Below are positions 2,323 through 64,000 of a stretch of DNA of 64,000 nt, piece after piece; within the stretch, counting starts at the first letter, position 1, and the number at the start of each line of letters is the position of its first letter. Location of the stretch: positions 1-64,000 of the forward strand of contig BDIU01000309.1 in NCBI GenBank assembly GCA_002118135.1, given 5' to 3'. This DNA is from Trebouxia sp. TZW2008 (lineage: Eukaryota; Chlorophyta; Trebouxiophyceae; Trebouxiales; Trebouxiaceae). The translations under genes were made by a program, and so were the position numbers. The notes under the pieces were generated by a model. It did no database searches. It saw nothing but the letters and a program-made list of their open reading frames with translations, and was not told the origin of the DNA.

Positions 2323-5300
2323 ATGTGGGACCAACGATTGCCGGCGAAGCCGTCTCTCACGTTGACACAGCTGGATACTGCACATATCCGCGCCTTGGCC
2401 TCTCTGACAGACGTTGATGCGGAGGCTTCAAGCCGCTCGGAGCTACTCACAGCCATCGAACGTCACGCTGAGGATGACAAGCCCTTGAAATGGTGTATGC
2501 AAGATGTCAGGGTATGTGGCTTGAACGCCCGCAATGGCCAGCGCCCAACAACGACAAGCTTTTCACGCTGGAATGTGTATACAGGGATACATTCCACCAC
2601 GCGCGTATGGACTGCTTGTTGCACATAAGGGTGTCCCGTACATCATTGGCGGTCTGCCAGTAGCTCCGTTTCTCTACCACAATCAGACTCGTGGCTGCGC
2701 TGCTCCTCGTGCTTTAGAGCACCCTCTGTGTGAGTCGGTGGCATTGATGAATGACGGAGGAATGTGGAGAAACGCTGAGCACTGCCAAGATGAGGCCAGC
2801 TGGGCTGCCATGGTCTGGGGTCATGCTGGTGAGAAACTTGGCAGTCTGCCGCAAGATGCTCTGTGGTCGCGCATGCTGGTGTTGCTGACAATCACATCAT
2901 AGCGCCAAAGATTGATTGTCTGCACTGCATTTTGTGCGGTGAAAGACTTGCTTCATTAGTCTTGAATGACTATGTTCTGGTATGAGCGTGCCCTTTTTGC
3001 TGTAAAATTGTTTGTCTTCTCACATTGCACTATCAGGTGTTCGCTAGAATGCACAGGCTTTGAGCCAGACTTCCAGCCAACCCTTCAGCAGTAATACTTC
3101 TGGCTGGACACAAGCCTCTGCACTTGCACTGGACAATTGGTTGTTCTGCACAGGCAGGAGCAAAGTCTGGATGCAAGTTGCCTGCTGCAGAAATTGTTCC
3201 CCAGGACAAGCTGTATGTTGTGGACAGGCTAGCTAATCAAGGCTCAGGCATGTCAAATATATGCGTGTCTGACTGTGTGCCTGCTGCTGGACTTCTTCAC
3301 CAGGACAAGCTGTATGTTGTGGGTAGGCTAGCTAATCAAGGCTCAAGCATGTCAGATATACGATTGCCTGACTTTGTGCCTGCTGCAGGAGGTGTCCACC
3401 AGGACAAGCTGTATGTTGTGGGCAGGCTAGCTAAGCTCATACATGTCAGTTTTGCACATGTTGACATGCTGCCTGCTGCAGGAGTTGTTCAATAGGACAA
3501 GCTGTATGTTGTGGGCAGGCTAGCTAAGCAGAGCTCAGGCGTACTAGATATGCGCATCTTTGACCTTGTGTGGCGGCAATGGTCATCATTGGAGCGCTAC
3601 TACGCTCCTGAGGCCTGTTTCAATCCCCACCTTGCTCTTCACGGGGAGACTCTTGTGCTATTTGGAGGTATGTTCTGCGCTAGACAGATTGTATGCCTCT
3701 GAGATCTGCCTCTGAGATCTGATTACGCTATCGTTATGATATTCCGTTTTATCAAGACGCTTTGGCAGTGACATTGTGCTCTTTATCTGGTTGATTTTGT
3801 GTCGCATATTGTAGGATTTGTGCTTTTCTGCTCACAGAACAGCTCACTGCTTGATGTGCAGTCCATAATTTCTATCTGATCAATGCTGCACCTGCCTGCC
3901 TCTATAGTCAGTTTGTCTGTTCATACAAAAAGGTGCCGTCAGCTCAGTATTCATCTACCGGCAATGACACCAGCAGCTGTATCTCAGATATATACACAGG
4001 GACAGTTTTCTGTCCCGTGCACTTGCTTTGATTGCTGCAGTCCTCAGCAACAGACGATTTGCAAACGACATAATCTGCACGCTGTCGTTCATTGCTGACT
4101 GTCACACATGACATAGATGCATACTTGCTCCATTCCCCATAGTTTGCAGGCTTTTCGGCAGCATGGACCTAAAAGCAGTTCTATGATCTGCTTGCTTCAT
4201 GGACATTGCCAGCTGCCGCTTGCTCTTTGTTTTCAGGGTCGCCTCTGTGCTGCAAATGCTTATTTGGGAACAGCTGTACGAATTGTTTGCTTTGCTTGTG
4301 CAGGACAGGACGATACGCTGAACCACGTCCAGCCTCACAGAGCGCTATGGACCTTTGACATCGCAACCTATACCTGGCAGTTGCGTCACGCCACAGGAGA
4401 ACTCCCAGACCCTTCCCTTGCTCTCGCCTTTACCATATGGAACAACAAGGCCTATCTGCTGACCACCACCCATGACACGGGGCTGACTTTGGAGGTGTAT
4501 CAGCTGGATTTGGACACCTGGCGTTGGTCTTTTGTCCTGACACGGGGCACATCACCCACTATGATGCGGGATACTGTTGTGGCAAAAACCAAGTGGCTTG
4601 ACATGTCAGCAGTGCAGATGAAGGTAATTGTTTGCCTGTGTTCCTGTCAAGTTTGCTTGTTCCAAGATGTCGCTAGCAAATGGCTCAATATGTCAGCAGT
4701 GCAGATGAAACTGAGATCCTGCCTGTGTTCCCGTCATGTTTGCTTGTTCAATGTGCCAGTAGCAAATGGCTTGACATGTCAGCAGTGCAACCCTAAAAAG
4801 ACAGTCTCTGGGAAGACAAAATGGAGAGTTGTACCCCGCATTGAAAGTCTTTTTGATTTCTTTCTGTCCTTTACCCCTTCTCTGTCCTTCCAATTTTACG
4901 CCCAGACGAGAGTCTGATCTTGTTCATGTCGCATTTTGGTATCATGCAGATGACTTGTACTGTAGCATTTCCGGTTTTGTGCTGTCACAAAGAGTCAACC
5001 TGAGTTCCTGTTGCATGCGCATGTGATTCAGATGGCTTGAGCTGTGACACTATATCTGTACTGTGGTATGTGTGTGACCAGTCCTATGTTGGCAATTTCT
5101 CTGCCATTCTTGCCCATTGGACAATCACCATTACACAGTCACCCTGAATAATGAAGGGTCACACGTTCTAGCATTGTTGCTAGGTGTGTATAGCTCAACT
5201 CCTGTCTTGCTGGGCCGGCTTGCTGTGACTATCATCTGTACGTGATCCCTGACAATCCACTTTTTGCATCTCTCTCACAGACAGATACGTCTGGGATGAT

Positions 5301-8300
5301 CACAGTCAGACTGCATATTAGATGAGCATATCTGAATTTGTGTTTCATTGCTCACACTTCCGTGCAGGGGCAGTGCATCTTTTTGGTGGTGTGCATGGGC
5401 AGGGATTTGAGAAGCCCTGTCCTTGGAAAGTTGATGTAGACTATCGTACTAGCTACAGAATCAAGTAATGCCATCGAGCATCTCCCCTGTCTTGTTGTAG
5501 GGGCAATAATTTTTTCGGTGTGGCCAGAGATTTGAGTTGCCATGCCCTTGCAAAGCGTTTTGCAGACTATCGCACCAGCTACAGAGACAAGTGTTGCCAT
5601 GGAACATCTCCCATGTTTCGTTGCAGGCAATGGATCAGTTTTGGTGGTGTGCATGGGCAGAGGTTTGAGAGGCCCTGTCCTTGGAACGTTGATGCAGACT
5701 ATTGTACCAGCTATAGAAACAAGTATCGCCATTGAACATCTCCCATGTTTTGTTGTAGGGGCAATGGATCCTTTTCGGTGTGGCCAGAGATCTGAGAAGC
5801 CATGCCCTTGCAAGATTGATGCAGACTGGCGTACCAGCGACAGAGGATAAAGTGTCCATGGCCCATCTCTCATGTGCTGTTGCAGGGGCTATGGATCTTT
5901 TTGGTGGTGTGGATGGGCAGGGATTGGGAACCTATGCCCTTAGAAGGTTGTATAGGGATATCACAGTAACTACAGAGAATGACATGTCCATGGACCATTT
6001 CTCATGTGCTGTTGCAGGGGCAATGGATCATGTTTGGTGGTGTGCATGCGCAGACCTTTGAGAAGCCATGCCCTTGGAAGATTGACGCAGATCCTCGCAC
6101 AAGCTGCCAGGATAGATATGTCTTGGAGCTGGAAACGCTCACCTGGAAAGAGTGGAGGATTTATGGGACAACCTCATTCAAGTCACGCTTTGGTGCCATG
6201 GCAACATGTATTGATGATCGCATTCTGTACCTTGGAGGTGAATGCTTTATTTATGAATAAGTCTAACCTCTTTACTTTCTAGCATATGTGCTAGGTGCAT
6301 ATGGCACGAAGATCATGTTTCCTCACTGTGCGCCTATGTCACAGTGACTCCTGAATATGCTGTTTGTCATGAAGCCTTACATTTGGCTGTCATGCTGGCC
6401 ATGATCTACGCTCTTCACATAGCAGTTGGAAGAGGTTTGTGGGTCGACAACTTAGGTGGTTGCACAGCCACAGTGCGTGCAAGGTGTTTTGCGTGAGATA
6501 CTGGTCTATCGCCGCGCAAACTTGTTCAAAGCGTTTATGAGAGCTCTTGTTTGATGTCTGTGTCTGCCTGCATGTAGGTATAGCAACCTCATGGGAGGAT
6601 TCCAAGAAAAAGCTGGTGGCAGCAGAGCCTGTGCAGCACATGTATCAGCAGGCAGAACCAAAGTGCGACAGGGACTGGGCAGACTACGACGTTGTACCAA
6701 CACACCTGCCTGCCAGCATGACTCAAATGTATCAGAAGCAGCTGTACATAGATGCCAGCATTGTGGTTCAGGGTCAGACACTGCATGTACACAGGGCTGT
6801 GCTTGCAGCATCCAGTGCAGTGTTTGACTGCTGGCTCAGCCCAACATGGCAGACAGGTGGGCAGTGATCTTGAGACCACTTCAGCAACTTCATATATGTG
6901 ATGTTGCTCTACAGTGCCAATGCATGTGCTTGGGACTGCGCCTTGGCTTGCACAATAAATGGCGTCATTAGTGTCTGTGCTAAACAGGCTAACCTGACAG
7001 CATCAGAGGCAACCACATTATGGCAAGCCTGCCACCAATTGCTGCATGCTAGGCTTCTTGTGACAGTCCTGACAGCTTTTACACAATCCTCAGCCATGCA
7101 AAACAATCAGCCTAATACGCTGTAAAGCAAAGTCAACGTGGCGCACATATTTTGGGATCTCTGTTTTGTCAGTGTCTGTAGCTCAAACTTATATCAATCT
7201 GCAGGCGGACACCCTGTGATTGAATTACATGAGAGCTCAGTTGACACAGTGCAGCTAATGTTGGACTACATCTATGGCAAGGGCATCCTTAGGCTCAGCC
7301 TTTCCGAAGCAGTGGCTCTGTTCAGAACGAGCGACAAGTATGGCGTAGTCCAGCTTCGCAAGCAGTGTGCACGCATCCTCGTGATCATGCTGAACACTAG
7401 CATCTTGGCCCCTATGCAAGAGTTGGCTGAGCGCCACAGCTGCTTAGAGCTTCTGCAGGTATGTCACAGCACTCACAGCTGCCTCTCTGGCACGGTTGCA
7501 GTAACAGGCGTTGCAGTAACAGGCAACACATTCTAGGCAGTTGGTTCATGTGCCAGCACTAGCTAGCATTACCACTAGCATCTTGGCCTCAGAAAACGGT
7601 TGCAGTAACAGGCAGCATGCTTTCTATTGAAGTTGATAGACTTCTGTTTGCAAAATGGAAAGGCACAACTCAGCAGCAAAGCAGCTTGTGTTGCATTGGC
7701 AGATGTTACGTGTTGCTCCGCTTTTATGGTGTTCCTGGTGTGTACATTTAGTCAATGCAAGAGCAGCTGTTTTTGTTCCTGTACTGCTTGTCACGGATGG
7801 CATACAAAAGAATGCGACTTGACCAGATGCTCAAAAGTATGCATGGTCCTGAGTGCATGTCTGTGATCAGCTGTGTGCGCGCGCAGGCCTGTGCAAACCT
7901 GCGTGAAGAGGAGGAAAAGAAGTCCTCTGGGGTCCCAGTGCCATATCCAACTTGGGATGACCTTGACAGACAAAGAGAGAAGGACAAGGTGCCCCAGTTC
8001 AGGAAACGTTCTGTCGTGCTGTTGCCATTACTGCTGAATGAAATGCAAAGGAAAATAACATTGTCAGACATCATAATCAAAGCCTCTGTGAGCAGAAGCA
8101 GCCTGGGGTTGCTGCTGCCGTGACCTATCAATTTGATGCATGAGATATGTGGATCATGATGCTTCAAGCAGCACATTGTCAGCGTCTATGGCATCAGTGG
8201 GAGTGGTGCAACAGCATGTTATACTAGCTCGCAAGTGTCAACTCAAAGAATCTTGATGACACAACTTGCCACAATCAGAATCACCTGTTGCAGTTCAGCA

Positions 8301-9776: not shown

Positions 9777-10979
9777 GCCTTCACACTCAAATGTAACAAC
9801 TTTTTAAGGTGCAAGAGCTTGACTCTACAGCAGTTGGTGTTGTATCCTTTTGCTTGATGATCAGACCACCTCAAGCTCCAAGCGAACATGCTTGATGTTG
9901 AGACTGGCACAGCAGCAGGATTTGTTGCAGAGAGTTGCTGATACAGTCCAGCATGCATCGGAGACAATGAGTTGAAAATCATGCTTTATGCGTTATTGTG
10001 GGTTGCAGGGCCAAGGCTAGCTGGACAGCCAAGTTGGGAAGCTGGGTAATCAACAAGCTGTCCAGCTGTTGAGAGGCGTGCCGTGACTGGTCAGGTATGT
10101 CGTCACGCCAGGTCTGAACTGCATTGCTTTGTTTGAGAGTGTCATGCATGGGTGGGAGGCAAATGTTGGCAATTGACTGGCCTGCAACTCAAGATTTAAG
10201 GAGCGGACCCCGTTTTTGTGTCGGGTCCTGCAAGCTTTATGAGTACAGGCATGTCACCAGTAGAGCTTGACAGGGCAGACTGTGACATTGGCTCCTGTTC
10301 TTGGCCTCATAATGGCTTTGGTCATGACAACATCACACGGTCCTTCCAGGTGTCAGTTTGCCAGCTACACATGAACCCCTTGCATGTCCGATACACCCTG
10401 GGCAACAGATGACTATAGTACACAACTTTTGTGTGCAATCAATGCTTGAGTGAATCTTGCAGATTTCAGTGCTTTTGCTTCTCTGCAGGCAAGTATGCTT
10501 GGAGGGGTCTACTAGGGGGGTTCCTGCGCCACCCCAAGGCCCATAAGGGATCCGGTCCATGGCAGCTTGTACCTTGTCCTGCCCACAGTTGATCTTGACC
10601 ACACTCTGAGCTGTCTGAGGCTCTACTTCATGGGCTTGAGATATGAAGGCAGCTCAAATCATTTCCTCCATCCAGAAGCAAATGGTGCAGCATCAGCAGG
10701 GGTCCAGGCCAAGCTCAAGGCAGGTATAGCAGTCATGGATCTGTGCGGTTGTCGTCAGCTGAAGCTCATGCCCCAAGACCCAGCTTTTGCAGTCACTGGT
10801 CCACCACAATTTGGCTTGGGCGCTGCTTGTTTGGTATTGCCATGCACAGCAGCCAAGCCGCGCATCAAAACAGACACTCAGCATTGCAGAGCCCAGGATG
10901 CAGCTGCTTGGGAGGCAAGAGATGGTTACTGACGGCACAGCCAAGCAGTTGTGGCAGTTTATTGCAAGCATTGATTGTA

Positions 10980-20700: not shown

Positions 20701-23700
20701 AAAGTGCATCATGTTGGAGCACATGTCTCAAGTGTGACGTGTCATGTGCAGATCGCTGTTTGTACGCCTGGACGGATGATTGATCTGATCAAGATGAAGG
20801 CATGCACCATGTCCAGGGTCACCTACCTTGTCTTTGACGAGGCAGACCGCATGTTTGACATGGGCTTTGAACCTCAGGTGAGACATTCCTGTGCGTAAAG
20901 GTGAATGCTGCCATAGTGTTGCAGCAAGACACATGCATTGCCTCATGCCCATTGCAAGCCCTTCATGCCATTTGCTGCTGCTATATCTCCACACGTCTCT
21001 GTGCAGCAGGACAGCTGCTGTCGTGCCGCCAGGTTGTACACGTTTGCAGTGCTTGATTGCAATGCACATGCCATGTGCTTCTCCCTTCATTCTTCTACTC
21101 CCTCATACAGAAGTTTACTGCTACTTCATGCAGACGTATGAGCAGATGTAAACCTGCCATCCACATAAGTCAGGCTTTTGCAACTTTGCGCAGGCAACTC
21201 AACTCGTTCATTGAGACAGCTGAACAATATAATCACCCGTCATGTGCATGAGTCACCTTTGCAAGTGAGCATCGACTGCATCTAAATGTCAGTGTGCAGG
21301 TTGGGCTGCTTCTACTCATAGACACTCCCCGTTCTGTTGCCTATTGGCATGGACCTGTGCTATGGTCTCCACTCTCATCATTTTCTTGCTCATTTGAACA
21401 ACTCTGTTTATCACTCTCATTACTTCCTTTGCTTTCAGGTGCGCAGCATCATGGGTCAGGTGCGGCCAGACAGGCAAACCCTGCTGTTCACAGCCACCAT
21501 GCCCAACAAGGTCAACAACCTGGTCAGTGACTGCTTGACCACGCCAGTCAGAGTGACTGTGGGAGAGATTGGAGCAGCCAATCAGGACATCCAACAGGCA
21601 AGCTTCCTATGCTGTCTGTATCACAGCTTGTCTGTATCAAAGCTTGTCTGCTTCCACAAGGATGACTCTGCTGTCAGACTGCCTTGCTGCAAATACAACT
21701 GCTTGTGTCAGCATCGCTTGCACTGCGCCAAGGAGTGCTCATTACCTCGGTCAGAGCCACTGTGGGAGAGATTGCAGCAGCCAGTCAGTACATTCAGCAG
21801 GCATGTTTTCTGTGCTGTGCAACACAGCTTGTCTATTGTTGCAAGCACAGATCTGCAGTCATGACTTCTTGCTGAAGTTACAACTGCTTGCTTCAGCATT
21901 GTTGCCACTGTATGTCCCAAGGTGTGTTGACCAACACAATACAGTTCCTGTGCGGAGATTAAGGCAGCCAATCAGGACATTCAGCAGGCAAACTTTTTGT
22001 GCTGTGCAACACAGCTTGTCTACTCCTACAAGCACAGATCTGCAGTCATAACTTCTTGCTGAAGGTACAACTGCTTGCTTCAGCATTGTTGCCACTGCCC
22101 CAAGGTGTGTTGACCAACACAATACAGTTCCTGTGGGGAGATTAAGGCAGCCAATCAGGACATTCAGCAGGCAAATTTTCTGTGCCGTGCAACACAGCTT
22201 ACCTACTCCTACAAGCACAGATCTGCAGTCACGAGTTCTTGCTGAAGTTACAACTGCTTGCTTCAGCATTCTTACCACTGCCCCAAGGTGTGCTGCCCAG
22301 CTTGATCAGAATAAGCGTTGGTGAGATTGAAGCAGCCAAGCAGGACATTCAGCAGGTAATCTTTCTGTGCTGTCTGTATCACAGCTTGTCTGCTGCCATA
22401 AGCGCAGATCTGCAGTCATGATTTCTAGCTGAACTCGCAACTGGTTGCTTCAACACGGCTTCCACTAGCGCAAGGTATGTTGACCAGACCTGTACCTCTG
22501 GGGGAGATCGGAGCAGCCAAACAGGGCATTTGACACTTATTTCTTCTGTGCTGTCTATAGCAGCAGACAAGCTGGTTATGCTTGTCTGCTGCTACAAGCA
22601 TGACTCTGCAGTCAGACTTCCTCCTCAAAAGCTCAAATTGCCACTGCTTGCTTCTGCATTGCCTGCGTTACTTCAAGGTGTTCTGAACAATGCTGCTTGG
22701 CAGCCTACTCAGTGAAGCTGCTAGACTACAGCTTTTTATATAAATCAGCATAACTAGCTACAGCAGGATTTCTTTCCATGACAGTAGCCAATTCAGTTGC
22801 CAATGGTCAATTCATGTTATGTGCAGCCTTGTTGTTGCACCACAGCTGCTGCAGCCTCGACATTGCCACCCTGATTGGACTGTAGTGCTGAAACACCTTA
22901 AGCATCAGTGTTTGCTGCTAGCATGACTTGCCATATGATGGAGTGCTTGTTAGGTTTCTGGCACGAGGCCAGGCAGGCTACAAGTGACCGTGAAGTGTAC
23001 AGCCTCATGGTATTTCTGCAGCACTGTTTATGTAAGGCAGCAAATTAAGGGCCATAAAACCACCAATCAAAAGCTGAGTTCTGCAGCTGATCTCAGCTGC
23101 CTTAGCTCCAGAGTAAGCGTTTCCGTCAGGCACAGTCACACTTCAGTCTCTTCAGATTGACTGCTAAGATTGTCTGCAATCTGAGAGAATGGATTGTTGC
23201 TGTGCCTGACAGAAACAAAGTGCTGGAAGTCAAGGCAGCTGAGAACAACTTGACAAAAGCAGGTGCAGCATTGGACGCACTGATTGTCTTGTCATCCTGT
23301 TCAAGCTGCTCAAGCAGATCTGTCACTTTGAGACTCAAAGGTCACTAGGGCGTGAGAGTGTCTGCGACACCACTCACACCTAAGCTGATGTACATGCAGC
23401 ACAATTCCGCAGAGAGTACAGTCATAACAGATCTGTCACTTGCTTGTAGCCAATAGCAACTAGATTGTTCACGGAACTGTCGACCGAGCGCTGCACTTGG
23501 CAACTGTGTTGGCCCTAAATAGCAACTAGCTTTCACACCCTGCCCAGGCCTTCAGGGCAAATACAATGGCTGAGAGCAAGCAGAGTTACACCCAACAACA
23601 ACGTTACGACGTGTCATGTGCCCACACAGGTTGTTGAGGTTGTTGCTGGAGATGTTCTCAAAGACCAGTGGCTGATGGGACACATCCACGAGTTCATAGA

Positions 23701-26593
23701 CAGGGGAGATGTTTTGGTGTTCGCCAATCAGAAGACGCGAGTGGACATGCTGTGTGACAAGCTCAAAATTGCAGGCGTCAGGTGTGCTCATTGCATTTGT
23801 GTTTGTGTCACTGCAGTTGTTTGCAGCACTGCCAGGATTGTTCGAGTCACGATCTGATGGTAACCCACACAGAGTCCAAAAACTTTGTGTTGCAATGCTC
23901 ACATCTTGCAAGTACAGGTCTCGGGGATTTGGGCACCAATTAAACCCGAAGTGTAGTGAACACAGATATATGCAGATTTTTGTGCATGCAAAAAATGGGT
24001 GCATGATCTGAAACACGTTTTGGCAGCAGCAGCTGCAGGAACGCAGATGCCTTGGCTTCTTTGTATACTCGCGCACAAGGTCTGAATGCCAGGGTCATCA
24101 ACATTGCATGACTTGCAGAGCTGCAGCCATTCATGGCGACATGGACCAGCACAGCAGGATGGCTGTCCTCAATGAATACAAAGCAGGCAAGCATCACGTT
24201 CTGGTGGCTACTGATGTGGCAGCCCGGGGTCTGGACATCAAGAGCATCAAGAGCGTGATCAACTATGATGCTGCCAAGGAGATAGACACCCATGTGCACA
24301 GGATAGGGCGCACTGGGCGAGCTGGGGACAAGGAGGGCATTGCGTACACTCTCATCACACCTTACGAGAGCCGATTTGCAGGTATGCTCAAAGTACTCCT
24401 GCTTGTGCTGATCTGTAGCCCTTGCTTGTTATGGTGTTGTGCATCATCTAAAGTGGCAAATGAGGATCCCCATTTGCTGATCGGGCGCACTGGGCGAGCT
24501 GGAGACAAGGAAGGCATTGCGTATACCCTCATCCCACCTTGTGAGACCCGCTTTGGAGGTGGCTCCTGTAGCTGCTGCTTGTGTTGTGTCACTTGCTAGC
24601 TGTGGGGATGAATCAAACCTGATGCAGCAACAGAGTATGGCCATGCATTGCCAGAAAGTAGCATGCTGTGAAGCTTCTTGCATTTTGGGAGGTTCAGTGT
24701 TGGTTTTGTCGTGTTTTGGGATCCAGTGAGCACCATATATCATCGAGGAGGTGATTTTCATGCCGAGCCAATCAGCATTGTTTCTAACTTTTCTGCTGTC
24801 CAGAGCATTCAATTGCATTGTTGGTAATGCAGGGGACCTGGTGAGCTCCATGTTTGCTGCCGGCCAGGAAGTATCTCAGCCTTTGCTAGATTTGGCCACC
24901 AAGGATCCCCGCTTCAAGAAGGGCCGCAGGGGCACAGCAGGCAGAGGAAGAGGAGGGGGGCGGGGCAGGGGTCGTAAGGGGGGTCCCCAAGTGGGTGGTG
25001 CAGGCCTCGGCTTTGGCAACACTGGCTATGCACCAGGCACATCACTGGCAGCAGCAGCAGCAACCAAGGGTGGTGCAGGCTATGCACCATCTGGTTTGGG
25101 AGCTGCGTTCAACACTGGCGGCTTTGAGTCAACGGTGGACGGCACCAATGCTGCTGTAGCGTCCAAGTATGAGCAGCCTGAGGGAGATTCTGACCCACCC
25201 CTACCTCCCGAGGCTGACCCGCCCCTTCCCCCACCCCCCTCCCTGGTCCCAAGCTACTCTTCAGAAGCCCCTCAGGCAGCTGCTGGGCAGCAGCCTGCAA
25301 CACCTCACGTCTCTCAACAGCCAGCTGTGATGCAAACACAAGCATCACCTATAGCACAGCAGTCAGTACCCGCCCAGCCGCCAAAGTTTAAGACACTGCA
25401 GGAGGCATTGCAAGAGCAGCAGGCAGCAGCAGCTGCTCAGACAGCTGCAAGCTTTACTCAAGCAGCAGCACCACAGCAGGCACAGCAGCAAGCACCGCCA
25501 ACGCAGCTTCAGGGCACCTTCTCAGGCTTCAAGAACATGTACAACAACCGATTTGGCAACTCGTTTGTGTCGTCTGGGTCCACTGGCGGAGATCAGTCCA
25601 TGAAAGCAACCATTGTGGCTCCAAAGCAGCAGGCTCAGCGGTCAGCAATGCCTGCGCCTATACCTGTGACAGAAAGGCCGCTCTTCAACAGACCAGGCGG
25701 ACTTGGAGCTGCGGCTCACAGTGCATCCACTCAGCAGGTTGATAATTATGGCTCATGGTTGGCCCAGCAGTTGTTTGCACGCAGACTTGTTTACCCTGCA
25801 TGCTTGCATGCCCTGTAGATCTGAATGCCTTCCTGCTTCTCTGGCATGTGAGCACAACACGGCCCATCAGATCAGTTGGCCTCTTAGCCTGAAGTTGCAT
25901 CAAGCATGCATACAGACAGAAACTGCAGAGGCACTGCTCATGTGTCCAACTGTAACTGAAAGACGTATTGCTTTTGGCTTGCAGGCGCTTGCTGCAGCCC
26001 AAGCAATTGCAGCTAGGCTATCATCCCAGGCTTCTGCCTCTACCCCTACCCCTACCCCAACCCCCAGCAATGACTGGGCTGGACAGCCAGACTACTACCA
26101 GCCCTCCCCAACTGCAGCTTTGGCAGCTGCACAGGCAATTGCTGACAGGCTTGCTGCCCAGGCACCCGCCGCAGCACCTGACACAGCAGCAGCACCTGCA
26201 TTACCAACTCCACCTCAGGCATCACCAGATTGGTACGAGGAGCCAGTCTCACGGCCTACGGCGGCAGCTTCTGGGTCTGCCGCCACAGCTGCTGCTCAGG
26301 CAGTTGCTGACCGGCTTGCCGCCCAGTTTTCAGGCTCTGCCGCATCTGTAGTGCCGTCAGATGCAGCATCACAGCAAAGCACTTCGTGGTCGTCAGGCTT
26401 TGCTGATGCTGCATCGCCTGCACCCATGTCATCTGCAACAGCCGCAGCACAGGCGATTGCTGACAGATTGGCTGCGCAAGCTGCGGCTGTTGGCAGCTCA
26501 ACGCCTCAGAATGGGCATGCGTATGGGCAATCTGCGAGCACAAAGAATGAACTTGACAGAGGCAGCAAAAGGCAAAAGTGGGATTCAAGATGA
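17755..26593 (+). CDS. DDX42: DEAD-box RNA helicase, DDX42/SF3b125 type
   Basis: Thirteen exons join in frame to 1089 residues: 17755-17919, 18114-18170, 18422-18562, 18827-19078, 19589-19710, 19948-20014, 20276-20527, 20752-20877, 21439-21597, 23630-23781, 24119-24381, 24833-25737 and 25985-26593. The N-terminal [13 protein letters not shown] and [10 protein letters not shown] are DDX42 hallmarks. Helicase motifs are all present: [24 protein letters not shown] ([14 protein letters not shown]), TAT, ARGLD and [10 protein letters not shown]. An RGG-rich and Gln/Ala/Pro-rich C-terminus follows. DDX42 acts with the U2 snRNP SF3b complex; Arabidopsis RH24 is the plant counterpart. The exon-9 intron uses GCAAGC as donor in the copy next to the intact exon (see 21561). 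It is head to head with PEX2. Confidence 0.93.
19290..19830 (+). repeat. Intronic tandem repeats flanking DDX42 exon 5
   Basis: Before the exon, related blocks containing tatgcatcatgcc and cacctgttg(c/t)tgtgcaag recur at about 19294, 19407 and 19526; the last leads into the true acceptor at 19588. After the exon, a 53-bp block (gctgctcaagtgatatgtatg) is repeated at about 19719 and 19771, beginning just inside the donor. Both arrays abut splice sites. Confidence 0.65.
21561..22680 (+). repeat. Six tandem copies of DDX42 exon 9 end plus donor and intron (about 184 bp)
   Basis: The stretch encoding [13 protein letters not shown] recurs at 21561, 21763, 21951, 22135, 22319 and 22501, with spacings of about 202, 188, 184, 184 and 182 bp. 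The units include copied intron (cacagcttgtct, caagcacagatctgcagtc, ccaaggtgtgttgacc). The first copy is joined to the intact exon. Copies 1-4 end in cag followed by a GC dinucleotide; copy 5 ends in cag followed by gtaatc, a normal GT donor. Copy 6 has decayed. A seventh fragment lies near 22670. Confidence 0.9.
24305..24565 (+). repeat. Duplicated DDX42 exon 11 end, helicase motif VI (2 copies, 177 bp)
   Basis: The stretch encoding [16 protein letters not shown] occurs at 24305 and again at 24482, in intron 11. The first copy has the functional donor (gcag|gtatgc); the second ends ggag|gtggct, also GT. The second copy remains open and close in sequence, so the duplication looks recent or the copy is used. 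Confidence 0.88.
25985..26505 (+). repeat. Degenerate [12 protein letters not shown] protein repeat in the DDX42 tail
   Basis: Four units of the type [13 protein letters not shown] are spaced by 40-60 residue linkers rich in Pro, Ser and Ala (for example [11 protein letters not shown]). They fill the last exon, which ends with a basic KRQKWDSR. Each unit is a predicted short amphipathic helix. The function is unknown. Confidence 0.8.
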
Positions 26594-29432: not shown

Positions 29433-32400
29433 CTACTTGAAAATTGGGGCCTGCAGGACTTCCTCAACTGTTGCCCTTGCAGAAGCCTCTGGGTGCAGCA
29501 TGTGACATACAACGTCGGCCAGTGACAGAAACTCCTCTTCAGAGGTTGACCAGAGAGCCAAGTGGCACAAGATCTCATGGCTATTGCTGTCACGCTGCTT
29601 GTCCTTATGAACACTTGCCTGCAGTCACATCACAGGTGTCTTGCCATGGCATGAATTGGCCAATCAAAGGCTGCAAAAGGCTTGATGCATGCCTAGTTGC
29701 AACAACAACAAAACAACCTTTATTATGTGAGGCAGCCAGCAGTCACAGCTTTTGACATGCAGCATGGCCCTAGCAGTTTCCTACCCATGCATCATGCTTC
29801 TTGCAAACATCCTCATACTCATTGCTGTCTCCACTGAAATAAGCCTGGGCTGTCAACAACCAATGCAGCAAGTAGCCCAGCCCCCAAACGTCATGAGCCA
29901 TTGCATCGATGAGCCCAGAGGCAGGGTGTCCTTCACGGCCAGCTATGATGTAGCAGATCTCAGGCGCAGTGAAATCTGTCGAATGCTGAAAGTTGAATGG
30001 AACGTCCTTGCATGGCCCTGCATGCAGTGCAGGCTCATGTCAAGTGGCACATGTTGAGGAGCTATGACATCAGCTCTGCATCTGAGCAAAGGACTGGCCA
30101 TCTGATTCCACCAAACTGCTACATGCGTTCAGCATCCAGCTCGAAGGAAAAGAAGCCACAAAGGCTGGAAAGGCATGTGAGTAGTAAGGTCACTGTAGCT
30201 ATGAGATGCTAGAGAAGCAACACATATCACCAGTGTGATGCAAGCTATAGGCGCTGCAGTGGAGCTAGAAACTGACCAGTATATACAACGCTGCCGCCGA
30301 GGTCATGCATGGTGAGCTGTAACACATTGCCTTCGTCATCCAGCAGGACTCGGATGTTTTGGGGCTTGATGTCACAGTGGGCCCGCCCCTGTGCATGCAG
30401 CCCTTGCACTGCCTGCACCACAAAACAACACATTGAGTTTGTAACACATTACACACACGACACATTGGATTTGCAACACATTGAGACTGCATTCACAACA
30501 GTGCAGCTAAAGATTTGTGCAGTGATTGATCTGCCTGCACCACAATACACTGAAAGTCACAGCAGGGCAGGTGACTGCTGCTGCAGTGAACACACTGTAT
30601 GCACTACAACACACCAAAACTTGCATAGGCACAGCTGAGTGCTGAAATTCCAATGAGCGCATGGCTGTGTGACAATTTGGTGAATACTGTCTCTCAGCGG
30701 GGTCTGCATTGCCTGCAGCCTCAGCTGAGGCATGCTCTGAGCAGAACACAGCATGGCAAGGTTGTCAAGCGTAAGTGATGCATGGAGCTGCGTGTCTGGC
30801 GACACAGCACATCATGGTAGAGTTGGCAAGCATGAATTGCGCACAGAGCAGGGTGTCTGGCAACACAGCACAGCATGGTAAGCTTGGCAAGCATGAGTGG
30901 TGCATGCAGCAGCATGTCTGGCAGCACAACACAGCAAAGTAAGGACGGCAAGCATTGGTTGTGCACACAACAATGTGTCTGGCATGAGCACAGCACAGAG
31001 CAGCAGGAAGTGATGTGCCAAAAACTCACTATGAGTGCTTGTTTTGCCACAGCCTGCCCACAGGCAAAGCTCTTGTCTTGTCCACCACTTCCATCCTTTG
31101 CCCGTTTTGACCTCAGACGAGCCATTGCGCCATCCAAATCCTGCAGGCATTATTGCAGAGCGGGAATCAGTGAACAAATTGCAGAGCGGGAATCAGAATA
31201 CACCTGCAGGCATTAGTGCAGAGCGGGAATTAGTGAACAAATTCATGCCACTCGTATGACAATATGTCACACTTTCCAGCAAAGACACTAGGTATATACG
31301 GCACAAGTCTTGTCTTGCCAGTGGCAGGCACAAAGTTTGGCAAATGAGTGTATTAAAAGCACTCAATATCAATGCAGATAGCTGTAGTGGAAGGAGAAGC
31401 TCAAGCTATGTGACTGCTTCTGCAGCGCAGTATATCATCAACCGATTGCCACTAGGCATGTGGAATGTGATTCACGGCTCCCTTGTAATGCACTGCAAAC
31501 TGAACCAAGCATTTTGCTAGCCCAGCATAACTACATCGGTGCAACAGCAAGGCAACGGCAACAACAGTCGGCAGAAGCTGACTCAGAGATGCACTGCATG
31601 CTGAACAAGACATTTTGCAAGCCCAGCATGATCACAATGCTACAGCAGCAATCAATGGTAACAGCAGTTGCCTTGATGCTACAGCAGCAGTCAATGGCAA
31701 CAGCAGTTGTCAGAAGCTTACTCAGCGGTGATGCACAACACATAGAACAGAAAATGTACAAGCCCAGCACGACAACAATGCTGCAACAGCATATGGTTGG
31801 CAGGGGCGTACTCAGTGATGATATACACGGCATCCTGCAGAGCATCGTCCATGTGGGCACAGGCACCAAGGCACTGCACCAGGTTGGCTTTGCCCAGTGC
31901 TGCTTCCAGTGCCTCAAGCTCAGCATTTGCCTTGTACACCTCTAGTGGAGTGTTGTATGCCAATTTCTTAATGGCGCAGGGCTTCACGGTGTCATCAGCC
32001 ATCAGAAGCTCCCCACTGCAACATCAGAGATGTGTAACTATGTGGCCACTGCGACATGTAGACAAGCAGTGTGTGACACAAACACAAACACATACATGCA
32101 CGTATAAACAAGGAAGTAACTTGACATGTAACAGTAGGTTTTGAACACACTAAGCAATTGTTGTTTGCACATGTTACATGCAGTTGCTGCAGCCAAATCA
32201 GCTTGATGCCATGCTAAACAGCACCTCTGCTGAGTGGTCTGATGACAACGACAGGGTCGTGCATTGCCATGCACGCTTGTCAAATGACAGCTTCATGTAA
32301 AGTGCTCAACAGCGTGGGCAGCACCACATACTGGTACACAGCGCTGCTAGCATCACTGATGCCTGCTGCAAAAGTCTGGTGTCCATGATAGAGGTTGTGC

Positions 32401-35400
32401 AGTATAGTGCAATGCAATGGAAGCACTTCTGCCATGCATTGAGCCTACGGCATGAGTCAGACACTGACTAGTACACAGCGCCATTGATGCCTTCTCCAAG
32501 GGTCTGGTCTCCATGACAGAGATTGTGCAATGCAGTGCAATGCAATGCAAGCACTTCTGCCATGCATTGAGCCTACGGCATGAGCGAGACACTTACTAGT
32601 ACACAGCGCCATTGATGCCTTCTCCAAAGGATCTGGTCTCCATGACACAGATTATGCAATGCAGTACAATGCAGCGCCAGCACTTCTGCCATGCACTGCA
32701 GCTTACAGCATGAGCCAGACACTAATACACAGCACCATCGACGCCTGCTCCCGAAGTCTGGTCACCATGACAGAGGGTTTGCAGCGTGGTGCAATGCAAT
32801 GCAAGCACTGGTGCAATGCAAGGCAAGCACTCGCATGATGATAGAGCCATGTATCGTGTTCAACAGCATGAGCAGCATGACTTACTAGTACACAGCGCCA
32901 TTGATGCCTGCCCCCAAAGTCTGGTCTCCACCTGTGACCAGCTTGCGCACCAAGGGGCTGAAGTTGGCTGGCTCATAGGTCCACGTAACCTCCTCATTCT
33001 CAGTCAGACCAAGCTTCTTCCTCATGTATGACTCCATGAAGCTGGATGCCATCTGCATCAAAGCAAGATTCAGACCCCTGTACAGTAATTCCTTCGATAG
33101 AGACACTTGCTACATGAACAACCTTGACGCGACAACAATGCATCTGGCGATTAAGTGCTGCCATCTGACTGCAGTCACACCTCTTAGCAAGCTTGTTCTG
33201 TTGTGCGCAACACAAGTCTTGTAATAATGCTTGAGACAAAGCGCTGGTGATAAAGAACATTCACTGCATGTATGCAAGCAGCGTAAGCAGGTTTTATCAT
33301 ACGAGATAGCAAAGGCATAAGGCTCGATGTCAAATCGCTGGTCAGCAGTCCTGGACTGGGTGCAGTCCCTTCAAGCAACAAAACAGCTGCAGACAACTGC
33401 AGTCAGAGGTTGCTATGGTAACAGACAGTGTTTGCAGGCAATGTAGACAATTGCAAGCAGGGTTTCATGCAATGCAGGCAGACAATGCCTACATGTTTGG
33501 TGGTCATTGGAAATACGCTGCCCAGGTTGAAGGCATCTGGCCTCGTCATCTTGTTGCAAAAGAAGTCCAGAACAGTCTACATGAACAGGACACCTTGTGA
33601 GATCTGACCACTGGCTTGCATGCACTGTGCCATGCGCTATGGCTTCTGATCCTGATGAGAATACGTGGTAGCTGAAACCAATAGGCACAGTATGGCATTG
33701 GCAGCTTCCAATTGCTTGACAGGGCACACCATGAGATCTGACTGCTGACTTGCATGCACATGATGCGCTGTGACTCTTTATGTGTAGAAGCTGAATCAAT
33801 AGGAGCAATGTGGCCTTGACAGCTTCCTGTTGCTTGATGGGGCAAGTCACACCAAGGTACCTGCTTTATCAGCATGTGCACAAGTTATAAGCCTGCATGG
33901 CCCTCCTCTTTGTTGTTCAGCCATTCTCCTTTCTTTTTCAGAAAGAGACAAATTCTCCATGCTTTCTCAGAAAGAGGAAAGTTTCCCTTTCTTTTTCAGA
34001 ACGAATTCCACCAACTCAGTGCAGCAGGGTCAATATGACAGTTGCTCAAACGCTGCTGCTGCTGCTGTGGCTGATGTCGATGGTCACAGATGTTGATGCA
34101 CATGACAGCTTTGCTCATATGCAGTGAGCATGCAGGCTGTGTTTGATGATGTTTGGCAGCAGAGATGCACTCTCTGACTCAATCACCAGGTACTGCTTGC
34201 AACAACAGCAGTAATGCATGATGCATTGCAGTCATCTATACACAGTGCAGATGTTTGAGCAGCAACGGTGTGATACCTGTGGCTCCTCATATACCCCATA
34301 TTCGTCACCACACTCATCATCATACTCGTCATCATACACTGACTGACTCTGCCTAGATGGATACTCCACAAGCTCAGCTGCCAGCTCTTCAGGTGACAGA
34401 TCCCATCTCCTCTGCACACAGCAACACAATTGCTCATACAATCAGAAAGATCATGGCATGCTGTGCCTCTCTGAGACAACAAGCCTAGCCCCAAATTCTT
34501 CACGTAACAAACTCCCTTTCCTCTGCGTACAGCAAACACAATTGCTTGCTCAACTTTAATTGGATCATGGCCTTTGATCCAACAAGTATAGCCTCCATGC
34601 AATGAATCCCCTTTTGCGCACAAGAGGCAGATTTGCTCATACACTGCTCTACATTAAAACAAGGAACGATGGGCACGACTGCGACACATTTGCCTGTTAA
34701 GAAAACTTGTTTGAACGTACACCTGCAGGCTGGATCAGCATCAAAGTTGAAACAGCAGTCACTAGCATGAAGGCGTCAGCTACCCAATGGGTTCTTTTTA
34801 CCTCAGAGTAAGCACCAACTGGCATGTCATCAGTCTCAGAGGTGCTTGCAGGTGCCTCAGCCCAGCGGCTAGCAGCCACAGAAGCAGCATGTGAGGTACC
34901 AACAGCATCCTCCTCCTCAGACTCAGTAGCGCTGCTGTTGCTCTACAGGGCAGAAAGCGTGATCGTCAAATTGCATCAATATTGAATGAGGCACAGCGTC
35001 TGATGTAGCAGCAGCGCTCGCCTTGCCCCAGCAGGTCCACCGCAGGTCTGCAGAGCAAAAAAACTTCATGGGTAACAAACTGAGCTGCCCACAAAGTTCA
35101 AGATGACAGGTTGCAGGCATTCATGATGACAGACGCCAGCTGCCGGCAGCACAGTCCTCAGGCTCAGTATGTCCTGCAATATCTGCAGGGTACAACTGTT
35201 GAGTGTCAGAAGACTGCATTGGGTCCATGCCAATAACGCTTGAGCTACCTTGAAGAAGCAACATTTGAACTTCTAGATTTCCATCGCACCCTATCTACCG
35301 GCAGCAACAGCTATCAACAGGCACGTATATATAGAGGACCGCAGCCAAGAAACACTAGCATGTGGAGGAAAGGATACCTGGTCTGTAGTGCTTGTTGATG

Positions 35401-40657: not shown

Positions 40658-43600
40658 ATGGCAGCAAGTCCCCTTACGGAGATGCCTGTGACAAACAATA
40701 GGTTCCGAGCAGCTCCAGCGCCTCAGTCGCTCATTGACACGCCTTTCGCTGGCTCTGACGTGAGTGTGGAAATAGCCTCACCTAAAACGCCCCTTGGTAC
40801 TGTGCACGAGGAGGATACAAATGGTCACGTTCCGGCCAGCCCCGTCGGCAACGTCAAAAATATCAAGCGAAACACACGTGGTGCTGGCTTTAGTTTCAAG
40901 CAAGTCGGTAGAAATATCTCCAAGCAATTTTCCTTGGATGACTTTGACTGGGACGCTGCGAAAAGGCGAAATGAGCAGATTGAGCAGATAGCTCTGAATG
41001 ATGAGGAACAGTGGAACATGCCACCTAGGCCACAGAACAAATGGGAGAAAGCCTGGATGGGATTCATCAGAACTTTGTCAGACACGTTCCTGATAGCAAG
41101 GCTATCCCTTAATCTGATAGGATACTTGGGCGTCGGTAAGTTGCTGAACATCAACCGATGAAAGCTGATGCAAGTACTGCATCAATTGCATAAGGCAAAG
41201 TTGCAGCAACTCAAGTTGAGGCAGTGAATTGCTGCAGGTGGCACATGGGTATTCAAGTTTCTGAGGCTGTGTGTTTACACCTTGCTCCTGATGCCAGGAT
41301 TTGCACAGGTGCGTGCCTGCTGGCTGCAGCAATGCATGCCTATAGCCAGAACACAACTGCCAGCTATGATTTGCTGCCTATCAAGCTTGTGCTAGCTGGT
41401 GCTGCTATGAAGTCTCCAGAAAAGTTCTGACCACCATGCACTTTGCTGATGTACGCTTCAACATGCAGATGTTTTTCTTCTACTTCCTTTCATCTAGAGT
41501 CATCCGCAGTGTTGCCTATGGCAAGAAGCCTCGTCAGCGGTTAGACATCTTTGTACCCAAGAACCATTGGAAGCAGAATGACAGTTTGCGGCCTGTTGTC
41601 ATCTATGTGACAGGTGCTTCCACATTGCTCTCTGCTTGCAGTCTCAGCACTTTTGTTGCCAACAATACCCAGTAGTGTTGGGCCCTCTTCAGCGCCTTTG
41701 CTACCACAAATGCAACCACAATCATGCTCGACTATCTTGCGTGCAAGGTATTGCTACCTTTGCTGCAGGCTGGCAATTGCATCAGCCTGCACAGGTTTAC
41801 ATCAGTCCTTTTCTATCTGTAATAGCATGTCACACCAGCTTGCATGTGGTGACAGCACAACCCACCCTGATACGGCCTTGCATATGTTGTGCGGCAGTAG
41901 CAGAATGACATCTGCACCAGACTGTCAGCAATTTAATGCTGGGCAAAACCTGCAAGATAAGCCTTGCCTTGTAGGAGGAGCATGGACTATTGGCTACAAG
42001 GCGTGGGGCTCTCTGCTGGGTCGCCGCCTCAGCAAGCACGGCTGCCTTGTCTGCTGCCTGGACTACCGCAACTTTCCTCAGGTACTTGTCATTCATCTTT
42101 GAACAGCAGACACAAACTTCAAGTCTCGACTAAGTATTCACAGCATTGCTGCTGATTGGCTCGTTGCGCTATTGGCTTTGCAAGAGTCTCCCGTCTGTAG
42201 CGGCCTTTGGCATTCTAGTGGCAAGTCATCATCATCTGCTGACATAGCATGCAGCACTTGATCATGACAATTGCAAACAGCTATGTCGCCTGACAGTTGC
42301 TCACTTTCAGTCACACCTACATGCAAACAGCATTGCTCACTTGCAGTGGGTACAGACACAGCTGTTGCATATTTTCTGACTTATGCGGCAGGCACATGTC
42401 TGCCTTGGGACATTCAAGCACAGCTGCTCACCTGTTGCAATGGCTGCATGAGGGAGATATGCATCTTGAGCAATTATGCTGACGTCCCTTCAAACAATGC
42501 ACAGCAACTGCATGACAGCAAAATTTGCCTGCCATTTCATCAGCACAACGCACTGCAACATGCATGACAGCAGCACTTGCCTGACACGACTTGTGCTTCT
42601 ACTGCTCTCAGGGAACCATTGTGGACATGATGGAAGATGTGAACACCGGCATTGGCTGGGTTTTGCAGAAGATCTCCAACTACGGTGGAGACCCGGAGCA
42701 GGTGTATCTGGTTGGCCAGTCATGTGGAGGGCAGCTGTGCACCCTCACCACCCTCATTCAGGTCAGCTTACACTGCAGAACGGATAGAAAGCCAGACAAA
42801 AGGAAACAAAAGAAAAGGAAGCCTTTGCTTACTAAGTCTGGTAGCACTTACGCCCTGAGGCCTCAACGAAATAGTCAAGTGGTGTATCGGGTTTCTCAAT
42901 TTTGCATTGCAGGCGCAGTGGCTGTTGTGTGACACGTGTGCTTGCTTGCACCCCAGGCATGCTTGAGCTTTGGCGTGTGACACAGGTACTGCTTGCAATG
43001 CAACTGCGCAGACAACTGCTGCAGAGGTCTAATTACAGACACCTGTGCAGTGTCAAGTGATCATCTGGTCATGGAGTGCGCGCTATCTTGTCCAGCATAT
43101 ACTGACGCAGGATCTTCAGCCAGCCAAAGCTGAGATTGCTGCAGAACCTGTTCCGTAATACGCTTGACAGTTTGCGCCTGTCCAGCATGATGCCTCACAT
43201 GAAGCCGTTTGACACGGCTCAATCTGCATGGTCAGCAAATCCACCTGCATCAACGGGCATTGTGCGACGCCAGACAATACAGTTCAGCCCACAGCATTTG
43301 TCTGGTATCAACATGGCTCACTCCTGTGCCACACACCCAAAGTCAACCCTCTTGCAGTACATGCGTGATTTTGTCACAATTGGCTGCCTGGCACGCAACT
43401 GTCATGCCTGCTGGCGGTGGTATAGGCTGCATTGACTGTTGGCAGTAGCATAGGCTGTGATGACTGTTGGAAATAGCGTAGGCTGTAGTTATTGTTGGCA
43501 GTGGCATGTAGGCTGAGCAGGCCATGGGCAGGAAGCACATCTTTGGCAGCACCCCCAAGTGGGCCCCCACCAAAATCAAGGGCTTGGTTGGGGTCTCTGG

Positions 43601-50660: not shown

Positions 50661-51830
50661 CCTCACCCCTTTCTCTCCCTGTCCAATAAATGAGTCCATC
50701 ATGCGTTGCTTGCGCTGTTGTATCTCCAGCATCTTCTCTTCTACTGTGCCTGAAATGGCAGCCACAGATATTTGGTTTTGAGAGGTTCTGTCCTTGATTC
50801 TTTTGTTTCAGTTTGCTTTTGCATTTCAAAGGGATTTTGGTGTTTGTTTTTGATTGCTCTGCTAACCAAAATCTTTGTTGAGGTCAGATGTCTGGCATGA
50901 GCCGATCAGACAAGCCTTGAAGATGTTGTCAGCAGCAGTGCAATGGTGGCGATGGTTTTGCCCAGGCCCTGGTCATCTGCTAACAATCCGCCTTGCACTG
51001 CAGGCTTGGCACCAGGACCTTCCCTGTGCAGCATCCAGGCCAGGGCTCTTGTCTGATGAGGCAGCAGGGGCACTGCCAAACCGCCCTGCATGACACAGAC
51101 CGCGTGGCGGCAGGTGACTACGCAGCAAAGCAGTGGTGGTGGTGATGACTAGGGCTTGGGCGAATCTTGCCAAAGCCCTAGTCATCTTGCAACAGCCCTC
51201 CTGCACTGCAGGCTTTGCATCACCACCCTCTTGGTGCAGCATCCAAGCCAGGGCTCTTGTTTGGTGCAGCAGCAGGGGCACTGCCAAACTGCCCTGCATA
51301 CCACAGCTACTGCCAGACCCATGATGCACTATCCTCAGCAGCCTTCCAAGTCTGCAAACCAACATAGACATAGAGATTAGTGCATCATACAGGCCAGGGT
51401 CTTTGTCTCAAGGGGCACTGTCAAGATGCCCTGCGTGCCACAGCTCAGGCTAAGATCGCATGTAAGAAGCTAACAGCAACTGATACAAGTACGAGAAACG
51501 TGGTGGAAAGAATTGACAGCACCATTCAGCTCACAAGTAGCTCCAATGTACTATTGACATCAGTCTTTGATTCTGAACTCACACGGTTGTCAGCTTTGCA
51601 AAGACAGCAGGCACTTGTACCTGTGGGGGCTCAGCATTTCCTTCAAAGTCACCACCAGCCAAAGTGCCCAACAATGCATCAACTGCCTCTTGGTGCCTGG
51701 CTGGAGACCATTTGTCTGCTTTGTCCTCACACTCATCATCCGTTTCAGAGCTTTTCTCGAAATTTGGTCCCAGACAGCCTTCGCCCATGCCTCCGACTTT
51801 CAGAGTTCCCTGAAACAGGCATCCATGCAA
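50613..51830 (-). pseudogene. SNF2/RAD5-type ATPase remnant with the core deleted
   Basis: Three SNF2-like segments lie on the minus strand. 51830 to about 51585 reads HQEAVDALLGTLAGG and VPAVFAKL. About 51087-50906 reads [19 protein letters not shown] and motif [20 protein letters not shown]. 50749-50613 reads EEKMLEIQQRKQRMMDSFIG then TKADLQALFD and TAG. The first two match the start of the ATPase core and the last matches the extreme C-terminus of plant RAD5/HLTF-like SNF2 proteins. DEAH (motif II) to motif VI and the RING finger, several hundred residues, are absent from the 150 bp between. The ATP exon is also partly duplicated. It is best read as a deleted pseudogene, though expression is not excluded. 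Confidence 0.7.
50992..51310 (-). repeat. Duplicated SNF2 motif-I exon (208-bp offset)
   Basis: The exon encoding [16 protein letters not shown] through the ATP loop occurs at about 50906-51087 and again at about 51125-51290. The second copy keeps [14 protein letters not shown] but is frameshifted across motif I. A third fragment lies near 51390-51445. Confidence 0.8.
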
Positions 51831-62192: not shown

Positions 62193-64000
62193 CAGTCTAT
62201 CCGGAAAGTAGACTTCAGCTTGACAACAAGCCTCCAGTCATCCTTGGTCATGTCCTCTTTGAAATGCTGTTTCAACAGATCAATGGACTTGCGAGAGATT
62301 TTGCTGACAAGCGGATCCTGCAAGTAGCAAGCTTATGTTGACAACAGGCCTGGAACATCTCTGTTGCAGCTGAATACTACTTATTCAAGACGCAAGCGAC
62401 TGAGATTCTCTTGCCAATTGGCCCAGCTGCTGTCAGAGGCATCATCAAACAGGACAGCAGGAACACAACATGCGTGCCACTGGTGCTTTTGAGTTTGTCA
62501 CTGGGCTCAAAAGTGCTCGTGCAGTCGCTGCAGTGCAGAAAACATGTCAGCTTGAAGACAAGCCAAAACTGGTCAATGTGTACCTTAAAGTCAAAATGAC
62601 GCCCGTACAGCCTTGTGGCCTCGGTTGCGTTTCCTGGCTCAATCTTCATGGCAACAGACTCGCCCTGCTTGGCTGTGTTGACAGGCTTGTGGTTCAGCTC
62701 CATGCTGGCAATGCGCCCAATGTCAATGCCACCTTGTGATGGCACACACAGCGGTGTGCCAACCTGCAACAAGCTTTTGGCATCAGTACTGTGACATGCC
62801 TGCCTGGCCCCAAGGCTTGCTAAACTTGACGCAAGCCTTCTTGCAAGGCATGCAGTTGGTGGAACAAAGGCATTCACTGATGTCTGCCAATGTCGGTGCG
62901 ACCTTGTGACAAAACACACAGCGGTGTATCAACTTGCAACAAGCTTTGGGTACCAGAGGGGATTTTGCTAAAACTTTTTGCTTAGCGTCAAACTCTCAGT
63001 TAGGACTTGGTGCTCAGTAGTCTGTCTTCAAAGGAAACATTCAGTTGACGGAGCAAAGCAACAAGGACTTTGCATGCCTGCAGGCCAATGACTCTGCAGT
63101 CGGCGGCTCTGTGGGTGCGTAGTGCCCATGTGACCAGCGACCAGACTGGCAAAATGTAGGAGCAGGGAGAAGCAGCCAGCAGCACAGATAGAAGAGGTAT
63201 GGCACCTTTGCAATGCCTTCTTCAATGTCCACTCCGACAACAATGGGGTCCTTCTTGTTGAAGACACAGTTGGGCAGAATGCGCAGGATGCATGGGAAGA
63301 CGGCATCAAATTTGGCAGCCTCCTGCTCCTCATCCTTCACCTGTATTGCAGCATGCAGCTTGCTGATGATAATGTTGATCACGTTCAACATGTTGTGAAT
63401 GTGAGTGAACAGATTATTTGGCGCACAGACCAGCAGGGCTAGGCGTGTGTGCTCAAGCCTTGTCTTGCATACAGCTTGAGTGAGGCTCAGACCACAGCAA
63501 ACTTTTTTTCGTAATGACTGCTTTGGTTACCAAGCAGTTAATCTTACATCAATTGTCCTTACTGAGCAGGACCATTGCAGTCAGAATGCAGTGATTGGGT
63601 ACCAATGGCGTTGTCCTTACATTAAGATTGTCCTTATATTGAGTGTCCTTGCACAGAGAGTTGACTGTACACGCATCCTGACGACGGCAACTTGCACATG
63701 CAGCTTTGCTACAGCCCACCTAAATGATCAGGCCATTTGGCTTAGCATTTCCACAATGACCACAATTGGACATACTGATCGAAGTCTTGCCTAGCTGTAC
63801 AAAACATCCATTACAAGCACAACTGCAAGCACAAACAAGGTTTCGACACATCGAACATACAGATGCAGCAGTCACTTACCGTCTTCAGATAAGCCGTGAA
63901 CTGGTCAAACAGGTGGTAGATGATGTCTGCTGTGAACACTTTGACTCCCAAGCTCTCAGCCATCTCTCTGGCCTCTCTGGTGACAGGCACATCAAAGGCC
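62193..64000 (-). CDS. eIF5B: Translation initiation factor eIF5B, C-terminal part, runs off the window
   Basis: Minus-strand exons, read from the right edge, give [20 protein letters not shown] and [11 protein letters not shown] (64000-about 63890), [15 protein letters not shown] with [20 protein letters not shown] (about 63350-63215), [20 protein letters not shown] with GRHFDFK (about 62765-62585), and [19 protein letters not shown] ending STFRID, TGA (62317-62193). These match domains III-IV of eIF5B, the GTPase that joins ribosomal subunits. The GTPase domain lies beyond the window. One exon edge is duplicated in the adjoining intron. Confidence 0.93.
62700..62960 (-). repeat. Duplicated eIF5B exon 5' end with acceptor (170 bp)
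   Basis: The stretch carrying the acceptor and exon start ([16 protein letters not shown]) at about 62700-62780 is repeated at about 62880-62950. The anchors accttgtga lie at 62731 and 62901. In the copy the acceptor reads ttgcaagttg and the open text is [15 protein letters not shown]. Confidence 0.8.

Follow-up and report, generated by a model that had tools for sequence, protein, structure and literature searches.

According to published accounts, human segmental duplications contain internal tandem repeats that lie at exon-intron boundaries (PMC2812944), repair-mediated proximal duplications are ascribed to synthesis-dependent strand annealing (PMC2671141), introns can be gained by tandem duplication, with a potato case in which an intron-exon border is duplicated (PMC4974935), and introners are copies of one element across many genes (PMC9860276). 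Our literature search, which left most subscription journals uncovered, turned up no account of algal arrays anchored at splice junctions in this way. Here we describe such arrays in the green alga Trebouxia sp. TZW2008, whose genome assembly (GCA_002118135.1) comprises 68.5 Mb in 527 contigs with a GC content of ~50%. The window is the opening 64 kb of contig BDIU01000309.1 (C293) and was analysed together with 200 kb from four further contigs (C20, C120, C170 and C220); counts refer to this sample of 264 kb unless the window is named. Enrichment of duplications at splice junctions is supported in the sample, and junction-spanning units exceed intronic ones beyond what modelled geometry and decay account for. 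We regard it as probable that the arrays are local tandem duplications whose units span a junction, with the real copy being used and the others decaying neutrally.

Duplication clusters and their position in genes

Self-comparison and a tandem-repeat finder identified 75 clusters of local direct duplication, which occupy 34.5 of the 264 kb. Their copies are arranged head-to-tail, in direct orientation and at a single locus, as is typical of local tandem duplications or minisatellites, but their placement is not indifferent to gene structure. The units are mostly 90-260 bp in length, and the middle half of the shortest lags spans 107-174 bp. We called a cluster anchored when exactly one of its edges lies inside an exon that runs on beyond the array. 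By this definition, 51 clusters are anchored, 19 have no edge in an exon, none has both edges in exons, and 5 are wholly or mostly coding, giving an anchored share of 51/70 among the non-coding clusters. A slightly different coding cut-off yields 53 anchored, 18 unanchored and 4 coding clusters, and the circular-shift test described below uses the figure of 53. Acceptor-type clusters (32) are not significantly more frequent than donor-type ones (19; p 0.09), and the exon-edge probe version of this comparison gave 35/264 versus 22/268 (p 0.07). Anchored and unanchored clusters number 8 and 6 in the window, 9 and 3 in C20, 6 and 0 in C120, 25 and 10 in C170, and 3 and 0 in C220. Their density is uneven, with 6 clusters over 40 kb in C120 (L008-L011) and 37 over 100 kb in C170 (L012-L015 and L019-L024), the contig that supplies 100 of the 264 kb.

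A few duplicated pairs are separated by spacers without similarity. Leftover similarity was sought in spaced duplications (C20 7540 and three others), and all values fell within the shuffle range; we read one of these three, C220 17305, as a degraded multi-copy array. Inverted copies were rejected, because all nine local inverted matches are palindromes, none being an exon edge reversed elsewhere, and none of 268 exon edges has a reverse-complement match to its own donor-side intron. The sample contains nine long imperfect palindromes with 55-249 bp of self-complementary sequence (window 23085-23250; C20, C170 and C220), of which seven are intronic, one is intergenic and one is partly exonic.

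Exons were defined by our own unsupervised two-strand gene model, trained iteratively on the sequence of the 264 kb alone. The model converged on 434 introns with the acceptor TGCAG^G and the donor CAG^GTRAG(C/T) (the caret marks the junction), and the median modelled lengths are 317 bp for introns and 127 bp for exons. GC replaces GT at ~11% of the predicted donors, including the DDX42 donor at 21598, which is a high share for spliceosomal introns. Among 20 anchored exons of our choice, the 30 longest of the 51 having been listed, 14 have a Pfam match at E<=0.01, and 10 of these exceed the curated cut-off. The exon end of the DDX42 array was fixed by homology to Asterochloris and Chlorella proteins.

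The duplications at exon edges in the window are as follows.

3174..3577, plus strand: kelch gene, acceptor-type array with a period of 99 and 4 copies; real exon modelled at 3519-3667, dead acceptor copies at 3228, 3327 and 3426.
4590..4789, plus strand: kelch gene, donor-type duplication with a lag of 87; real exon modelled at 4304-4623, GT lost in the copy at 4711.
5358..6129, plus strand: kelch gene, acceptor-type array with a period of ~130; real exon modelled at 6018-6237, dead acceptor copies at 5368, 5501, 5759 and 5886.
21535..22690, plus strand: DDX42, donor-type array with a period of ~187-203 and 6 copies; real exon end at 21597 with a GC donor, dead donors at 21801, 21988, 22171 (GC), 22356 (GT) and 22537 (lost).
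24258..24644, plus strand: DDX42, donor-type duplication with a lag of 185; by homology the helicase exon ends near 24385-24389, an end that our gene model erroneously read through, and the dead copy is at 24480-24560.
32227..32930, minus strand: gene named a kinase in the original prediction, donor-type array with a period of ~128; real exon modelled at 32886-33052, dead donor copies at 32722, 32596, 32468 and 32331.
43399..43515, plus strand: gene named ICME in the original prediction, 28-bp minisatellite next to the start of a modelled exon, of which it takes in ~4 bases.
50958..51306, minus strand: SNF2-domain gene, duplicated exon part and acceptor with a lag of 209; modelled exon at 50912-51085, copy at 51159-51306, either of which could be the real one.
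62717..62956, minus strand: eIF5B, acceptor-type duplication with a lag of 170; real exon modelled at 62584-62763, AG lost at the copy site 62933.

The original prediction, made from the window alone, held that arrays in at least six unrelated genes are anchored at exon edges. Seven of the eight coordinates that it listed (3201, 4591, 5363, 21561, 24305, 32320 and 62700) proved to be junction-anchored, and the array at 31499 fell under our threshold, with only 71% self-similarity at 31488-31882. For the window's non-coding clusters as a whole, anchoring applies to 8 of 14 and fails for 6. The ICME array, with its period of 28 bp, hardly enters the exon, and the 61-bp arrays, at 30739-30998 and 50277-50648, lie wholly in modelled non-coding DNA. 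A period of 58 bp is discernible only as a weak signal at 30472-31243 (67-69% identity), where lags of 58-66 score alike. That a single copy is joined to the complete exon was confirmed for the anchored arrays. Searches also bore out the identities of DDX42, eIF5B and the SNF2 gene: the top match of the DDX42 helicase has 77% identity and is labelled Astpho2, which we take to be Asterochloris, and eIF5B matched solved structures. The kelch identity is backed by an exon matching its best kelch model at E 6e-11, yet this score is under that model's curated cut-off.

Several further features were observed in the sample. Positions 1-201 of the window recur at 99% identity in C416:53223-53423 (minus strand), perhaps reflecting a contig-end overlap or a repeat. 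A coproporphyrinogen oxidase exon (L011:3913-4095; clusters 32/33) and an exon of a TCP-1 gene (L022:6607-6795; clusters 65/66) carry junction duplications on both sides. A DEAD-box helicase gene (L012:3712-6711) contains several whole-exon-like copies at ~190-bp spacing, including a pair at 5655/6031 that is 92% identical, and possibly represents tandem exon duplication.

Excess of duplications at splice junctions

Under a circular-shift null, 28.0 ± 4.2 clusters were anchored (maximum 42 in 1000), compared with 53 observed. In a decay simulation, duplications of unit length were placed randomly, and intronic and single-junction ones were kept and then diverged, with the exon copy constrained and the other copy free, before the BLAST part of the real detection was applied. 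This simulation predicted 45% anchored (1567/3481), compared with 51/70 observed (p = 2e-6), and for units of at least 90 bp with deeper simulated ages it predicted 839/1852, compared with 48/60 observed (p = 4e-8). The enrichment at junctions, for which the original prediction proposed a test, holds in the 264 kb. A probe test that is independent of cluster edges found a match in the same intron for 57/532 exon-edge probes versus 14/246 random intron probes, and for 46/532 versus 7/246 at a stricter score; exon probes matched random pieces of other introns at a background rate of 0.08-0.11%, and intron probes did so at 0.5%.

The placement of units was analysed in 45 of the 48 long-unit clusters, the other three, which exceeded the unit in length, being omitted. 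The median exonic share is 0.57 of the unit. Placing junction-containing units uniformly fits these data (Kolmogorov-Smirnov (KS) p 0.45), as does a junction-centred placement model (p 0.13). An exon-wide hot spot, in which exon bases attract duplication, was rejected (p 0.0007-0.006). The best-fitting rule is that a splice junction lies within the unit, rather than that the unit is exonic. It is conceivable, though less likely than not, that junctions in this algal lineage are themselves hot spots of tandem duplication, at which breakage or copying centred there and tied to transcription or splicing would seed the units of 90-260 bp and would have lengthened a substantial proportion of introns.

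Duplications might instead occur equally everywhere and be retained selectively, array contraction by recombination carrying no cost in introns but doing harm at junctions, where a diverged extra copy would give a hybrid that damages the exon. Frameshifts and replacements in the extra copies would indeed spoil a hybrid exon, and the majority of arrays are not young (the estimated neutral divergence of anchored clusters ranges from 0.05 at the 5th to 0.18 at the 95th percentile). However, crossovers falling in a unit's intronic portion would do no harm. This explanation also predicts intronic units among the youngest, whereas only 3 of the 32 listed pairs at an identity of at least 0.82 are wholly intronic; young intronic short-period arrays do exist outside that pair list, at 19718 and at C20 24650. 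On balance, we consider selective retention unlikely.

Chance and gene geometry, with duplications falling anywhere and selection purging the exon-internal ones, would require no special bias at all. Given exons of ~127 bp and introns of ~317 bp, a unit of ~150 bp will frequently cover a junction, and random placement alone puts 30-33% of units across exactly one. Moreover, unit ends look random once the junction is given, and a 30-kb holdout, with 2 of its 5 clusters anchored against a null of 1.7, is compatible with this explanation. Nevertheless, geometry combined with slower decay of the constrained copy yields only ~45% anchored clusters, compared with 73-80% observed, and decay bias as the sole cause was rejected. 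In addition, ~55 wholly intronic long units would be expected from the estimated ages of 46 anchored clusters, and 3-5 were seen. Of the 12 long-unit clusters without an exon-crossing edge, 7 contain or touch a modelled exon, in one case where the sample ends, and by our reading 3 have intronic aligned columns only and 2 nearly so. Chance and geometry as the full explanation are thus distinctly unlikely.

Some results weigh against the explanation favoured here. The gene models merge adjacent genes and sometimes label dead copies as exons. The looser probe excess is just two-fold over introns, and decay accounts for part of it. C170 alone provides 25 of the 51 anchored clusters, and the 5 holdout clusters hardly depart from the null. 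One process acting genome-wide, as originally suggested, is plausible on the evidence of these five contigs. A first, cruder placement test, using all 51 clusters and no modelling of detection, rejected uniform placement (KS p 0.004; median exonic part 81 versus 58 bp). Exon edges match the next intron but one in 12/250 cases, which indicates that some duplications extend past one junction. Young copies are also fewer than steady birth would supply, at 4/46 compared with 25% (p = 0.005, the identities coming from more than one aligner), which may reflect either a slowing of the process or the collapse of near-identical copies during assembly. For the arrays seen, an assembly artefact is unlikely, because their copies are 10-30% diverged. 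Finally, splice dinucleotides are retained in the extra copies more often than the 54.6 of 84 expected from flanking identity squared.

State of the extra copies

Where an array has at least two extra copies, the changes private to a single one of them are spread evenly over codon positions (108/103/111), whereas changes that set the real exon apart from every extra copy are biased to the third position (18/10/47, p = 3e-7); the coding repeat of cluster 3 (window 9284-9777) was excluded from these and the placement counts. The contrast independently supports our choice of the real copy. Across 91 segments, the extra copies also show 149 gaps that shift the frame, and their 2254 codons include 20 in-frame stops. 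Even codon-position changes and broken frames show that the extra copies are dead as a group; this pooled absence of coding constraint leaves room for exceptions among individual pairs.

The extra copies usually keep AG or GT, as the original prediction stated: the dinucleotide is exact in 64/84, including four copies from cluster 3, none of which kept it. We estimate a neutral expectation of ~64/84 for a fixed real site whose copy is ~13% diverged, and regard this as the fairer figure. Among 91 scored extra copies, 11 lack the dinucleotide. When real sites and copies are compared position by position, GT and AG are matched at 0.89.

It was also suggested that the copies serve as decoy or alternative exon ends, in which case they would be retained for splicing or its regulation. 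Extra donors score equal to real ones (median 4.56 for both; 37 copies), dinucleotide retention exceeds the flanking-identity expectation, and a few pairs show a strong third-position bias. In contrast, extra acceptors are weaker than real ones (5.17 versus 6.86; 54 copies), private changes are even across codon positions in broken frames, and donor positions +3 to +7 are matched at only 0.53-0.75, not above the surrounding intron (0.76), the copies being non-independent. Acceptor positions -6 to +1 are matched at 0.85, compared with 0.71 for intron and 0.78 for exon positions, as expected when the real site alone is constrained. A decoy function is thus very improbable, although, given the donor scores, occasional splicing of extra copies is conceivable. 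Intron birth of the Rogers/Hellsten type, in which tandem duplication of an exon segment yields a new intron, likewise involves splice sites and tandem duplication, but it needs both array edges to be exonic, as in 0/70 non-coding clusters (3.4 by the circular-shift null), and we dismiss it as extremely improbable.

Introners were rejected as the source, in line with the original prediction, since searches with four of the arrays found no copy of array length at any other place in the genome; the search passes over very common words, and one of the four gave two ~42-base matches on another contig. For the DDX42 array at 21535..22690, the genome search found no further copy.

Proposed origin and comparison with known systems

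In the explanation that we favour, replication slippage or synthesis-dependent repair would make local direct duplications, and a unit, mostly of 90-260 bp, would take in a splice junction. Splicing would stay with the copy joined to the full exon, which is the first copy in a donor-type and the last in an acceptor-type array; which copy is spliced is our inference. The protein would be unaltered, the junction-spanning duplication being hidden by splicing, and the spare copies, sometimes 3-6, would remain in the lengthened intron as pseudo-edges that decay without constraint. Slippage or repair, hiding by splicing and decay constitute the ordinary part of this explanation, and the junction-spanning excess goes beyond the modelled geometry and decay. 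The excess could stem from a breakage or copying bias at junctions, perhaps through stalled transcription or splicing, or from selective retention. If the anatomy is as described, a mutational bias at junctions has somewhat less than an even chance of being the cause; selective retention is rather doubtful, and an unrecognised ascertainment effect is more doubtful still.

These findings suggest that repeated copying of its own borders, rather than mobile elements, can make an intron longer, and splice junctions may attract or retain duplications. Dead exon edges with donors that score like real ones are also a trap for annotation, into which our own gene model fell when it labelled some of them as exons.

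As the cited papers describe them, the known systems resemble these arrays in some respects and differ in others. The human tandem repeats also cross exon-intron boundaries and alter or lengthen introns, but they have mean units of ~30 bp, belong to recent primate paralogs and give new introns with transcript support (PMC2812944), whereas the algal arrays have mostly 90-260 bp units, lie in various genes, and consist of old neutral copies with no new introns seen. Repair-mediated proximal duplications are likewise local, measure at most a few hundred bp and occasionally include exon/intron borders; partial exon/intron donors account for 4/824, and one duplicated exon is inverted (PMC2671141), whereas in the algal sample no inverted exon-edge copy was found and junction-spanning units predominate. 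Introners arise by a genome-wide process acting in introns (PMC9860276), as is plausible for the algal arrays too, and differ in that array-length copies of the four tested algal units occur nowhere else in the genome. The cases of intron gain also combine local tandem duplication with splice sites, but they make new introns or exons (PMC4974935), whereas the Trebouxia arrays lengthen an existing intron with dead copies of its edge.

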